DNA of 33,581 bases from Richelia intracellularis (GTDB taxonomy: Bacteria; Cyanobacteriota; Cyanobacteriia; Cyanobacteriales; Nostocaceae). The notes under the pieces were generated by a model. That model did no database searches, was not told the origin of the DNA, and saw only the letters and a list, made by a program, of their open reading frames with translations. Location: positions 1 to 33,581 of the forward strand of contig CBZS010000374.1 of assembly GCA_000613065.1 (NCBI GenBank), in the 5' to 3' direction. Every line of letters starts with the position of its first letter. Position 1 is the stretch's first letter. The position numbers and the translations under genes were made by a program. This document shows positions 6,195 to 30,704 of this stretch, one piece after another.

Positions 6195-6270
6195 GGCGTT
6201 GCTGAATCAGGGGATGAATTAGCTTTTGAAACCATTGATAAATCGTTGAGAATTTAGTGAAATCATCCCC
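6195..6270. mobile_element. MITE copy lacking its right tip
   Basis: Begins GGCGTTGCTGAATCAGGGG, keeps the conserved core TTTGAAACCATTGATAAATC and ends at CATCCCC. The final ATTCAGCAACGCC arm is missing. It directly follows the moeZ terminator T-tract. Confidence 0.8.
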
Positions 6271-12474: not shown

Positions 12475-13825
12475 AGTGATTTATAAGAAAGAATTGACCA
12501 ATGAAAGTAAGATGTAATGTTGATGAGTAAAAAAACAGGGGCAAGTATTTTGGAGTATGCTAGACCCACCAGAGGAACCCAAATCATTAACAAGATCACA
12601 AATAAATAGAAGACTTGCGGTTGCCAGCATCGAACATGAATGGAGTAGAACGTCGGGGCTTTCAACCTGAAATCACGTTGAAATATTGCCAAGATAGAGC
12701 AAGGTTAGCACAAACAGTATTCCGTTGGGGTAGAGAAAATATAGAGTTAGGGTTAGCGGAAAAAAGAACAGGGATAATCTGTGTGGGATTACAATCAACC
12801 TTTAGCACAGCAAAGCGTTGCCAGGAGAAACAACCTCTTCTCTTCTGACATTATCGCTGCGATAAATTGCACAATCTGATTCTCAACAAGACCCAAACTT
12901 TAAAACTTCCTTAGCCTATACTCGCTTCACAGCAACATCCGCACTAGAAAAACTCAAAGAGCAGGGATTTAGCTAGGAGCAATTGCCTTGCGCCAGTACA
13001 ATGGCACAAGTCTTGAATCGAATGGGCTATGGTCTTCGTAAAGTAGTAAAAGCCAAACCTCAAAAAAAATTCCACAAACGGATGATATCTTCAACAACAT
13101 CAAAGAATTTGAGCCGCAATCAACAAACAAGCCTCAAAGTCAAACGACTAAGCATGGATTGAAAAGCTACGGTTAATATCGGGGGTTATTCTCGTGGTGG
13201 AAAAACCAGAGGAGACAATCAAGCTCAGGAGCATCATATGGGATGCACAGAAAAATATACTTCCTGTGGGATTTTTGATGAAGATAGTGGGCAATTATTT
13301 TATACTAACTTTGGTAGTTCTTCTTATCAAACCAGGGATTTTATTGTTGATACTCTAATTGAATGGTGGAAGACAATGACACCAGAACAAAAGCAGCATA
13401 CCGAACTGATACAAATTAAAGTTGATAATGGTCCGGAAAGTAGTGGAGTAAGAACTCAATAAAAAAAAAGTATGGTTGAGTTTCTTGATATCCTAAATAT
13501 ACCAATTCAATTGCTTTACTATGCTCCTTACCATAGTAAATACAATCCCATAGAGGGTTATTGGGGTATTCTTGACCAGGATTGGAATGGGGGGGGGGCG
13601 AAGCTTGTTGATGTTGAAGTCATCCTTTCCTGGGCTTCGAATATGACTTGGAAAGCCTTATATCCTATTTTGAGTTTAAGTAAAACTGTTTACCAAAAAG
13701 GAATTTCCCTAACAAAGAAAGCTATGAAACAAGTAGAGTCTAGATTACAACGAAATCCACTGTTGCCCAAATGAGATATTGTGATTCAACCGCTGTAGCT
13801 GGTAATTTATTTTTCAAAAATCACC
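12475..13825 (+). mobile_element. ISAzo13-family-like element inserted in ISAs1
   Basis: About 1.35 kb, bounded by related ends: AGTGATTTATAAG on the left and, on the complementary strand of the right, GGTGATTTTTGAA. A TTA (or TA) flanks both sides (12472-12474 and 13826-13828). Removing it rejoins the ISAs1 reading LHWTL-DVTF. It contains the transposase remnant at 12540-13798. Confidence 0.75.
12540..13798 (+). pseudogene. ISAzo13-family-like transposase, multiply broken
   Basis: Blocks in order, over several frames: MLDPPEEPKSLTRSQINRRL, EITLKYCQDRARLAQTVFRW, then TSLAYTRFTATSALEKLKEQ and MAQVLNRMGYGLRKVVKAKP. The DDE-like region follows: GYSRGGKTRGDNQAQEHHMG, GIFDEDSGQLFYTNFGSS, IQIKVDNGPESSGVRTQ and YYAPYHSKYNPIEGYWGIL. 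It ends RNPLLPK-stop-DIVIQPL. An extra G-run near 13590-13597 disrupts the NWNGAKLVD motif. Stops and frameshifts are numerous. The ISAzo13 label rests on remembered similarity of the DNGPESSG/HSKYNPIE blocks, so treat it as likely rather than certain. Confidence 0.7.
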
Positions 13826-15700: not shown

Positions 15701-15791
15701 GGCGTTGGATAAGTGCGGGATGAATTAGCCTTTGAAACCATTGATAAATCGTTGAAAATTTAGTGAAATCATCCCGCACTTATCCAACGCC
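15701..15791. mobile_element. MITE copy with perfectly matched arms, GGATAAGTGCGGG type
   Basis: A 91-bp copy. The left arm GGCGTTGGATAAGTGCGGG is the exact reverse complement of the right arm CCCGCACTTATCCAACGCC. Both arms carry the same private base (GTTGG/CCAAC rather than GTTGC/GCAAC). The left flank is the acyltransferase-like remnant and the right flank is ISKra4 sequence, so it lies at a rearrangement junction. Confidence 0.9.
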
Positions 15792-16256
15792 GGTAAATCA
15801 AGTTCAGTTCCCGCAGGTATGCGCCGGAGTGCTACTTTACCCAAACTGACCTCCCAAGAACGTAAACGCGTGGATACCTGTGCTAGATATTTACTTAACA
15901 ATGTCAAATACCTCAAATATGACGATTACTTAAAAGCTGGATTCCCCATCACCACGGGGGTGATTGAGGGTGCTTGTCGCCACCTGATTAAAGACAGACA
16001 GGATGGATCTCACTGGGACTAGATAGAGGATGAGGGGTGCTGAGGCTGTTTTAACCCTGGGTTCTTTATACATCAGTGGCGATTGGGATTAGTATTGACA
16101 GTTTAATCTACAACAAGAAGATAAATGCAATCACCTGCCTTTGTACTCTAGTGGTATTGCTTTGATCAAGCAAGTTCTCAAAGCTCGTTGTTCTACTACC
16201 CCTCCACCTCTTCCAATAGCTGTCTAAGTTCCACTCCCCGTCTGACTAAAAGAGTC
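15792..16256 (+). pseudogene. ISKra4-family transposase, 3' remnant
   Basis: Reads GKSSSVPAGMRRSATLPKL, RKRVDTCARYLLNNVKYLKY and then AGFPITTGVIEGACRHLIKD, the characteristic ISKra4 C-terminal block. After HW a stop and frameshift follow. Then come EAVLTLGSLYISGDWD-like sequence and LPLYSSGIALIKQVLKARCS, ending TTPPPLPIAV at 16227. The 3' non-coding end GTCTAAGTTCCACTC...ACTAAAAGAGT is shared with the copy at 29838-30704 and marks the IS end near 16256. The 5' half is missing at the MITE border. Confidence 0.85.
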
Positions 16257-16334
16257 GCACCTAATAAAAATAACAACTGGCACAGACTTTCTGAATTAAT
16301 ATAAGTTTCATTTGTAATTGTAATTATTTCCTTA
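16257..16334 (-). pseudogene. IS630-family transposase, downstream piece
   Basis: Read on the minus strand this continues the transposase at 17255-17740 after the IS5-family insertion: KEIITITNETYINSESLCQL and LFLLGATL. It is then cut at the ISKra4 end. Confidence 0.7.
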
Positions 16335-25221: not shown

Positions 25222-27252
25222 ATGGCAAATTTAGATATTAGAGAATCGTTGTTAACTAATGGGTTAGGTAGTTTTGCCAGTGGTACAGTCTCGGATATTC
25301 GTACTCGCATTTATCATGGATGGCTATTTACTGCTACTAATCCACCCACAGAACGTAAGTTATTACTTACCCATTTAGAGGCTAGCTTAGAAATTTCCGG
25401 TGGGGTACTGGCATTAGGAACAAATTTTTCGGTTGATGGGCAGATTAAACCACTAGGCTACAAATTCCTGCGGCATTTTGAGGTAAGCCCAATGCCTAAA
25501 TGGGTCTGGAGTGGGGAAAATTGGGAAGTAAGTAGGTATTTATTTATGCCCAACAGCACAGTTCTTACGTTTCGGGTATTCATTGATCATGCATATAAAG
25601 GTATAAATGATGCCATCTTAAAACTAAGACCATTGATTGCTGATCGCAATTTTCACCATCAGCAGCAGGGGAATCCCCTGTTGCAATTGTCCCCGTTGTT
25701 AGAGTTAAAACAAGTTTGTCTGCAAGCTATCATCCAAAAAGAATGGGTCGGTACTCCTTGGTATTTACGTTGGAGTCATGGGAAATATCAGCCTGATGGA
25801 ATGTGGTACTGGAATTATGGTTTAACAGAGGAGACACAACGGGGTTTACAAGATAGTGAAGACTTGTATAATCCTGGTTATTTAAGTATTTATTTGCAAC
25901 CAAATGATAAAGTGTTTTTATAAGCGAGAATAGGATTGCCTGTATCATCTCTGAGTTCCCCAACTATTGATAGTTTTACAATTGCAAGGGAGCAAGAAAA
26001 AGAACGACTGGCTCAGATTTTTGGATGGTGGAATGGGACAAGTTCAGAAAGGGAAAAAGATGAGCAAAAATTGTCAAGTTACACATCAAAAGCTGCCATT
26101 TGGCAGTCATTGTTGCGATCAAGCGATCGCTTTGTCGTTCACAGAAGTTCCATTGCTGGCCCCACAGTCATAGCTGGTTATCACTGGTTGAATTATTGGG
26201 GTCGAGACACCTTAATTGCTTTACCTGGATTAACCCTAGTTACTGAGATATTTGAGCTTGCTAAAGGCATTTTGCAGACCTTTGGTAGCTATTCCCGTAA
26301 TGGTTTGATTCCCAATGCATTCCCTGATGATGACAAACAACCTTTTTACAATAGTATTGATGCCGCCTTATGCTGGATTGAAACCCTGGGGTTATATTTA
26401 GAAGCAACGGAAGATTGGAGTTTTTTAGCAACACAATATCCAGTAGTAGAGCAAATATATAAAGCTTTTATAGTTGATACTCATTACAATATTCAGGTTG
26501 AGGCTATGGATAGCTTACTCAGTTGGGAGGCAAATGGTGTAGCCTTAAGCTGGATGGATGTGGTAATTCAAGGTACACCTGTCACTCCTAGATGTGGAAA
26601 ACCCGTAAAAATAAATGCTCTGTGGTATTCGGCTTTATGTTGGATTAGTCAGTGGTCACAAATCTTAAGTAATATGGGTTATGGTGAATCTGCCCGTTTG
26701 GCAAAACAAGCACAACGTTATGCTCAACAAGCGGAACAGGTAAAAACTTCTCTCCAAAAATTCTGGAATTCCGAGATTAATTACCTTTATGACAGCATTG
26801 GGTCGGACTTGAGCCGTAATGCTCAAGTCCGACCCAATGCTGTGTTAGCTCTTTCCCTACGTCATAGTGCTTTTACCGACTATCAAGGGGAAAAAGTACT
26901 TGCTGGAACTAAAGCCAGTTTACTTACTCCCTATGGTTTACGTAGCCTCCATCCCCGGGTTCCAGAATATATTGACACATATACAGGTAACGCCGAACAG
27001 CGCGATCGCGCTTACCATCAAGGTACGGTATGGTGTTGGTTATTGGGTGCTTTTATTCCTGCATGGCAGCGTTTTTACCTCCAGGAAGCTGTTCCCTTTG
27101 ACTGGAAAGCAATATTAGAACACTTCCTCAATGATGCCTGTATGGGTTCCCTTTCCGAGATTTTTGATACTAACCCACCCTATACAGCCAGAGGTGCGAT
27201 CGTTCAAGCTTGGTCTGTTGCAGAAGTGATGCGTCATTTTCCCCATGAATAA
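25222..27252 (+). pseudogene. Amylo-alpha-1,6-glucosidase (glycogen-debranching type) with one in-frame stop
   Basis: One frame of 676 codons interrupted only by TAA at codon 234 (25921-25923). The first part has LLTNGLGSFASGTVSDIRTR and IYHGWL, typical of the GDE N-terminal domain. The second has the catalytic-domain signatures HWLNYWGRDTLIALPGL (Trp326, Arg328, Asp329), SRNGLIPNAFPDD, NSIDAALCWIETLG, LSWMDV, VRPNAVLALSL and AYHQGTVWCWLLGAF. Family proteins are about 650-720 residues, so this is a full-length gene with a single nonsense change. Either it is newly dead or the halves are made separately; the second could start at the TTG at 25936, but no RBS is seen. A 23-bp perfect palindrome lies inside at 26792-26843. 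Confidence 0.88.
26792..26843. repeat. 23-bp perfect inverted repeat inside the debranching gene
   Basis: Arms 26792-26814 and 26821-26843 are exact reverse complements around the six-base loop CGTAAT. The reading frame stays open through both arms. The right arm encodes the conserved QVRPNAV block and the left arm a normally variable loop (DSIGSDLS). In mRNA it would form a very stable hairpin. Confidence 0.95.
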
Positions 27253-29549: not shown

Positions 29550-29837
29550 TCACAAAATCTGATTGTCAAGATAATCAAAGGTTCGTATGGCTAGAGCTAC
29601 CATAATAAAAATTGGGTTAACCGTTCCAGAACCAACAAAAGTACTGCCACCAGCAACAAATAGATTGGAGATGCCTACTTTCGCATATTGGTCTACTACG
29701 CTGTTTTTGATATCGCTACCTATACGACAAGTTCCATGGTGATAGGCAGTAGATGAAAATTCTTGAAAATCGAAGAACTTGGTTTATTCTGCTCCAGTTG
29801 CAGCAGCAATCCTTTGAAACAAATGATTAAGATGCTA
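29550..29837 (-). pseudogene. GMC oxidoreductase, C-terminal remnant
   Basis: Minus-strand reading FQRIAAATGAE-stop-TKFFDF, then STAYHHGTCRIGSDIKNSVV, DQYAKVGISNLFVAGGSTFV and GSGTVNPIFIMVALAIRTFD ends YLDNQIL before a TGA. The HHGTCRIG and NLFVAGGS...NP blocks are the C-terminal FAD-binding and active-site region of GMC-family alcohol/sugar oxidoreductases. The gene is cut upstream by ISKra4 at 29838 and has an internal stop. Confidence 0.85.
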
Positions 29838-30704
29838 CTCTTTTAGTAAAACGGAGAGTGGAACTTAGACAGGTATTGGAAGAGGTGGAGGGGTCGTAGA
29901 ACAACGAGCTTTGAGAACTTGCTTCATTAAAGCAATACCACTAGAGTACAAAGCCAGGTGATTGGGTTTATGTTCTTGTTGTACATGAAACTGCCAATAC
30001 TCATCCCAATCGCCACTGATGTATAAAGAACCCAGGGGGAAAACAGCCTCAGCACCCCTCATGGTCCATCTAGCCCCAGTGATATCCATCCTGTCTGTCT
30101 TTAATCAGGTGGCGACAAGGACCCTCAATCACCCCCGTGGCGATGAAGAATCCAGGTTTTCAGTAATCGTCATATTTGAGGTATTTGGCATTGTTAAGTA
30201 AATATCTAGCACAGGTATCCATCGTTTTACGTTCTTGGGGGATCAGTTTGGGTAAAGTCCCACTCTGGCGCATGCCTGGGCCAACTGAACTTGATTTACC
30301 TTCAAGCATAAGCTGTAAACGTTTGCTCTCCCAAACTTCTGCCTGTGTTGAAGTCTGATAATAAAACACAAATGCAGCTTTCCACAAATACTCAATCACA
30401 TGGATAATATCCCTGTCTTAGTCCATGAGAATATTGCTGTGCTGATAGATTAAACTCCCCATCCAAAGGAAATAGGGTATTTATCTTTCTTCCTCCATAA
30501 CCGATTCTATTGGCGATTACTGTGCCAAATAATGTGGTCAATTTCCGCCAAAATTTTTTCTTGTATGTTCTGTTTACTAACTCTGTGCCTGCACACTCTC
30601 CCTCTATTTCATCTTGACTACGTTTATCAAAATATCTTTCTTTGTAACAACCTTTTCAATAGTTTGTATCCATTCTCAAGTCACTTACTTTCTATCTGGG
30701 AGTG
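29838..30704 (-). mobile_element. ISKra4-family element remnant, internally deleted
   Basis: Minus strand. GECAGTELVNRTYKKKFWRK, LTTLFGTVIANRIGYGGRK and FPLDGEFNLSAQQYSHGLRQ come first. A deletion joint leads to HVIEYLWKAAFVFYYQTSTQ, AEVWESKRLQLMLEGKSSSV, GTLPKLIPQERKTMDTCARY, LLNNAKYLKYDDY, ATGVIEGPCRHLIKDRQDG, MDITGARWTMRGAEAVFPLG and SLYISGDWDEYWQFHVQQEH, ending TTPPPLPIPV at 29865. It shares its 3' end with the copy at 15792-16256. Stops and the deletion make it inactive. It is inserted in the GMC oxidoreductase gene. Confidence 0.85.

Follow-up and report, generated by a model that had tools for sequence, protein, structure and literature searches.

A perfect 23-bp palindrome in a glycogen debranching enzyme gene of Richelia intracellularis and its likely origin by quasipalindrome-associated template switching

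A glycogen debranching enzyme gene of the diatom-associated cyanobacterium Richelia intracellularis carries a perfect inverted repeat with 23-bp arms. Comparison with 29 related genes makes it very likely that one quasipalindrome-associated template-switch mutation in this Richelia lineage produced the palindrome, with the right arm copied into the left. The repeat lies in a stretch of 33,581 nucleotides (contig CBZS010000374.1 of assembly GCA_000613065.1), here called the window; coordinates without a locus prefix refer to its forward strand, on which all features of the gene are read. The source genome (G000), probably that of R. intracellularis RC01, comprises 5,488,377 bases in 857 contigs, and one genome of the same genus (G001, 3.2 Mb) was compared with it. 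Genome sizes of 5.48 Mbp for RintRC01, 3.24 Mbp for RintHH01, and 5.97 Mbp for CalSC01 have been reported (PMC8776783).

The palindrome and its broken host gene

An inverted-repeat search of the window placed the arms at 26792–26814 and 26821–26843, with 23 of 23 positions complementary and a six-base loop, CGTAAT, at 26815–26820. This is the geometry that an earlier note, based on the letters of the DNA, had described. The same note had held that chance alone would not give such a structure, and the calculation agrees: from base composition, the window should contain 4.8e-8 perfect repeats of this size (arm of 23 or longer, loop of 0–30), and shuffled samples contained on average no repeats with arms of at least 14. 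As RNA, the 52-nt palindrome folds at −45.4 kcal/mol (z −12.8), a value that none of 200 shuffles equaled, in line with the very stable mRNA hairpin that had been anticipated. When the source genome was searched, the palindrome was found in one place; besides itself and its own reverse complement, there were five matches of 14–21 bases.

The host gene was identified as a glycogen debranching enzyme from two ORFs in the same frame. The downstream ORF (25936–27252, 438 aa), which bears the palindrome, matches GDE_C (amylo-alpha-1,6-glucosidase, PF06202, 410 bits), and the upstream ORF (25222–25923), the N-terminal part of the gene, matches GDE_N (PF12439, 198 bits). Both domains are present but not in one open frame, as they are separated by an in-frame TAA at 25921–25923, where all 29 relatives have a Glu codon; most of the matches listed are single open frames of about 660–790 aa. 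The earlier description of an open coding sequence thus holds for the frame through the palindrome but not for the gene, which is broken upstream. In a leave-one-out count, 29 of the 273 positions at which the other 29 rows of the alignment agree are different in the Richelia gene, the stop included, compared with 1–6 of 245–250 for six other rows counted in the same way. Pairwise dN/dS between the Richelia gene and three Calothrix rows is 0.15–0.17. Apparently the gene was under constraint through most of its past and is now eroding, provided that the TAA is genuine; it is broken, mis-sequenced at this codon, or read via an unrecognized start or readthrough. Matches of the GDE_C part to solved structures, those of eukaryotic glycogen debranching enzymes, are limited in extent; they suffice for naming the enzyme but not for judging the changed loop. 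The same-genus genome G001 (88% complete) gave no match to the debranching gene.

Arm comparison with relatives and origin of the palindrome

Thirty-two relatives of the gene were fetched and three duplicates dropped, and the remaining 29 were aligned with the Richelia gene in 30 rows. The nearest relatives found were those of Calothrix rhizosoleniae SC01 and two Calothrix MAGs, and even the closest row has a DNA identity of only 77%. In a tree built without the palindrome columns, the Richelia gene groups with that of SC01 (support 95/65), and its end branch has a length of 0.26 changes per site.

The palindrome is present in one of the 30 rows; the 29 relatives pair 5–13 of the 23 positions. 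In the three nearest rows, the Calothrix sequences L040, L041, and L039, the outer nine positions of the arms (26792–26800 with 26835–26843) pair at 8 of 9 places. Judged from these sequences, an older imperfect stem was probably present at the site before the event. None of the 29 relatives has a gap between 26780 and 26855 and both flanks align, which argues for a length-neutral overwriting and not an insertion.

The two arms differ in how well they are kept. The right arm is 18, 20, and 20 of 23 identical to L040, L041, and L039, respectively (15–20 over all 29 relatives), compared with 12, 12, and 13 of 23 for the left arm (9–16 over all 29). Pooled over the 29 relatives, the left arm accounts for 299 differences and the right arm for 165. 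The right arm encodes AQVRPNAV, and RPNA is found in 29 of 29 relatives, as expected from the earlier identification of a conserved block (VRPN) in this arm. Against L041 and L039, it shows three differences, all at silent third positions, leaving AQVRPNAV unchanged; against the sister row L040 there are five, one of which changes Thr to Ala. The loop codons read R-N, as in 28 of 29 relatives, with R-H in L020.

The left arm begins with the second and third bases of an Asp codon and continues with S-I-G-S-D-L-S. In it, we counted 11 differences from L040, 11 from L041, and 10 from L039. They span 26795–26814 against L040 and 26795–26813 against the other two rows, and this would be the shortest rewritten tract. 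At the protein level, DTIEPDDR, DTIEPDDS, or DTIEPDDY of Calothrix became DSIGSDLS, a change of 4–5 residues in which an Asp invariant in all 29 relatives was replaced by Leu. The core of the arm (26801–26813) departs at 7 positions from bases on which the three Calothrix rows agree; along the gene, only 3 of 2015 segments of 13 nt reach 7 such differences, and all three overlap this core. Over its full 23 nt, the arm does not stand out alone, since 37 of 2005 segments of the gene have as many differences. A score of the differences “explained” by the partner arm was left out of the evidence as non-discriminating, because the pooled count was high in both directions (239 of 299 for the left arm, 105 of 165 for the reverse). 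Comparison with orthologs, which the earlier note had proposed, thus turned out as it predicted: the relatives have a different left-arm sequence and a better kept right arm, and the overwriting of the left arm by a reverse copy of the right is supported.

The mutation would have started from an older imperfect inverted repeat, in which a 9-nt outer stem with a single mismatch enclosed a mostly unpaired middle. In the course of replication or repair, the nascent strand would leave its template and take the right arm as a new one, either through its own already copied stretch (foldback) or on the sister strand. The reverse complement of the right arm would then be written over the position of the left arm, and the strand would switch back to its first template at the outer stem, a place of near identity between copied and original sequence at which the copied strand could re-pair with the template. 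As the nearest relatives hold the imperfect outer stem (8 of 9), such an event amounts to the correction of a quasipalindrome, and copying from right to left accounts for the changed base 26795 inside that stem. The exchange would be length-neutral, so that the frame stayed open and 4–5 amino acids were altered together. The marks of template switching were found together at this site: a perfect derived repeat, an imperfect repeat in living relatives, clustering of the changes in one arm, and homology that resumes on both sides.

We infer a single event rather than several, with copying either along the same nascent strand or from the sister strand. With a nearest row of only 77% identity, however, several steps are possible, and some of the left-arm differences may reflect ordinary change on so long a branch. 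The event would be young, given that the 46 arm bases contain no mismatch although the end branch has a length of 0.26. If rates were even and the stem was not repaired later, this suggests a date within about the last quarter of the branch.

Other origins of the palindrome were considered, among which an artefact deserves the most attention: a foldback chimera could have arisen during whole-genome amplification, library making, or assembly. We regard this as improbable, although the draft is fragmented, some genes occur in two near-identical contigs, and the upstream TAA could likewise be a sequence error. A contig break in the nifH element of RC01 has also been reported, in a passage that attributes seven odd cases from heterocyst genomes to mis-assembly as the probable cause (PMC4874684). 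A chimera of this kind, however, turns once and continues reversed, whereas in the debranching gene homology resumes on both sides and no base has been gained or lost. A second palindrome-bearing gene, the amidase gene described below, is also homologous on both flanks, and its protein is found 100% identical in another contig. Selection for the hairpin, as an mRNA structure regulating translation or decay or as a terminator, would suit the great stability of the RNA stem and is nevertheless very unlikely. The hairpin is absent from all 29 relatives, and the nonsense codon together with the many lost invariant residues makes fine regulation of this gene hard to expect. Between 26500 and 27500 there are no terminator-like sites (a GC-rich stem followed by a T run), by which an intrinsic terminator was ruled out.

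Palindromic elements such as the Rickettsia palindromic elements (RPE) and small MITEs insert into genes, are present in several copies, and add length. Many dispersed hairpin repeats do occur in the sampled part of the source genome, but the palindrome of the debranching gene occurs once in the whole genome, has only itself as a match in the sample, and shows no added length in any of the 29 comparisons; its insertion as a dispersed element was rejected on these grounds and has a negligible probability. It is just as hard to believe that independent point substitutions completed the palindrome by chance. The long branch would have given them time, but all of the 11–12 positions that are unpaired in the nearest relatives would have had to become paired, against the minute expectation given above. 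Template switching from the right arm into the left accordingly remains our preferred explanation.

Other palindromes, dispersed repeats, and exonuclease VII in the source genome

To see the palindrome in the context of its genome, the window and 80 other contigs of G000 (489,486 bases, about 9% of the genome) were compared with 20 stretches each from the genomes of three relatives, G024 (taken as C. rhizosoleniae SC01), G168, and G071 (957 kb in total). The count covered perfect inverted repeats with arms of at least 14 and loops of up to 30 and excluded low-complexity arms. G000, G024, G168, and G071 contained 45, 4, 12, and 20 such repeats, of which 10, 1, 0, and 3 lie inside ORFs of at least 100 aa (293, 177, 324, and 259 kb of ORF, in the same order). 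Three block-shuffled versions of the sample from each of the four genomes gave a mean of 0. The 10 of 14 coding palindromes that belong to G000 correspond to a binomial p of 0.0009. A stricter count, setting the five G000 ORFs with a non-transposase Pfam match against all four cases elsewhere, gave p = 0.07, and the excess of coding palindromes in G000 is therefore suggestive but not firm. For arms of at least 18 anywhere in the samples, 23 of 30 are from G000 (p = 2e-6), a count to which dispersed repeats and terminators may contribute.

One of the coding palindromes, in an amidase gene (L148:4675–4717), has 18 of 18 paired positions and a loop of 7. Eight relatives pair 8–12 of the 18, and the same-genus G001 pairs 10. 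The G000 protein reads DLSVANVRR where L183 and L184 read DLSKSPNVRR, one codon shorter than the eight relatives. Against the nearest relative, L183, the left arm is 12 of 18 and the right arm 15 of 18 identical, with silent right-arm changes. The asymmetry of the arms is clear only in this comparison: it is weak against L184 (13 left, 14 right matches) and reversed against L185 (13 left, 12 right), and it is likewise weak or reversed against five more distant rows. At the DNA level, the pattern appears similar to that of the palindrome in the window but less clear. The amidase protein of L148 (contig C560) has its identical counterpart in contig C817, where it was compared as protein only. 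This pair and that of L068 (C160) with C281 show protein identities of 99–100%, suggesting assembly redundancy or recent duplication.

The remaining coding palindromes of G000 vary in their setting. Those in a SulP gene (L096:2700–2743, 18 bp) and a PhoX gene (L096:7655–7697, 19 bp) are found at the start or end of the homology to relatives and may mark truncations, not clean switches. A further one, L068:13659–13692, is within the homologous sequence of a phosphate-binding-like protein and has a left arm unlike that of the solved relatives. The others, at L068:1231, L068:1794, L094:2828, L159:9973, and L082:12540, fall in two transposase-like ORFs and three ORFs without a Pfam match. The coding palindrome of G024 is a perfect 24-bp repeat with no loop (L110:8336–8383), located near the start of a GHL10 glycosyl-hydrolase-like ORF.

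Dispersed repeats are another feature of the Richelia sequence. Over long stretches, the window has no ORF reaching 100 aa, and a 100-aa ORF at 13472–13774, probably a remnant, matches the end of a DDE transposase (DDE_Tnp_ISAZ013). A hairpin element of about 91 nt is found at 15701–15791 and 1837–1927, with more matches near 6211, 10700, 11725, 14677, and 22770. A second dispersed repeat, about 115 nt long and with 24 hits in the G000 sample, is seen at 16151–16264 and 29830–29941 and at L068:13304–13414. The phosphate-binding-like ORF (L068:13305–13880) takes its first codons from this repeat, and the translated start of the ORF matches more than 100 places in the genome.

The 91-nt element was found 68 times in the 490-kb G000 sample and gave no match in the samples of G024, G168, and G071. 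Two copies are too near contig ends, and 66 were read. The arms differ in a 9-nt middle in 42 copies, 13 have one middle on both arms, 6 have the other middle on both arms, 1 is swapped, and 4 were left unclassified; 10 stems pair at 23 of 23 positions. Private bases are common to both arms at 8 paired positions and confined to one arm at 117. This pattern fits arm homogenization by template switching; in a rival interpretation, copies with matching arms would represent older subfamilies, and the mixed form would have arisen by recombination.

A possible cause of frequent template switching was sought among the nucleases. Neither xseA (TIGR00237) nor xseB (TIGR01280), the genes of the two subunits of exonuclease VII (ExoVII), gave a match in the Richelia genomes G000 and G001, and both were found in all eight other genomes tested. 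ExoVII is one of the single-strand exonucleases that guard against quasipalindrome mutation. For E. coli, a protective effect of 3′ to 5′ single-strand exonucleases against these mutations has been stated (PMC3820800, citing Viswanathan et al. 2000), as has an increase upon loss of mismatch repair (PMC3820800). We tentatively consider, and think rather doubtful, that the loss of ExoVII in Richelia led to template-switch palindromes throughout the genome, with genes and dispersed hairpins alike being rewritten by foldback copying. G024 has ExoVII and a 24-bp coding palindrome, which speaks against the loss being necessary. Across the family, 30 of 192 genomes (28 of 185 when restricted to good ones) gave no xseA match, and 32 gave none above the cut-off; besides the two Richelia genomes, 28 others thus have no match, some of them large, arguing against a simple link between ExoVII and palindromes, and its loss as a peculiarity of Richelia was rejected. 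Loss of SbcD or RecJ was likewise rejected as the cause of the hairpins, as both are present in 10 of 10 genomes. If the ExoVII idea were true, this diatom symbiont would represent a highly specific type of natural mutator that arose through gene loss in symbiosis. The presence of coding palindromes and absence of ExoVII in one genome offer a natural test of whether the loss of a single-strand nuclease alters the kinds of mutation found in an eroding symbiont.

Comparison with known template-switch systems

Among the hits listed in searches of the open-access literature, no paper dealt with template switching in Richelia. The kind of mutation is known from bacteria. Quasipalindrome template switching, formulated in the Ripley model, has been described for T4 rII and for E. 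coli rpsL and thyA (PMC8604942), as well as for lacZ reporters in E. coli (PMC7202029). As in these systems, an imperfect inverted repeat appears to have been made perfect in Richelia, with one arm templating the other. Unlike the laboratory mutants, the Richelia case is an evolutionary change in a cyanobacterial gene and involves arms of 23 bp.

In coding genes of Saccharomyces cerevisiae, template switching has been reported with arms of 7–16 bp (Table 1 of PMC8604942) and up to five changed residues. These cases resemble the Richelia palindrome in the homogenization of arms inside genes and in the clustered amino acid changes. They differ from it in that they were found among strains of one species, whereas the relatives of the Richelia gene are much more distant, and in that the 23-bp arms exceed the 16-bp maximum of that table. 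Template switching has also been reported to create perfect stems in RNA genes (PMC8794818). There, too, one event can yield a perfect stem, but the Richelia stem is in a protein gene in apparent decay.

Perfect inverted repeats of up to 284 bp have been described in protein-coding genes of Nematomorpha mitochondria (PMC6649704). According to that report, both arms encode conserved residues, the genes work, and template switching is one possible mechanism. In the Richelia palindrome, by contrast, conservation is limited to the right arm. Against this background, the Richelia palindrome is notable for its unusual length, its location in a symbiont gene that appears to be eroding, and its occurrence in a genome that may contain more of them. 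The debranching gene provides a clean natural case from a bacterium in which template switching would have changed several residues of a protein together.
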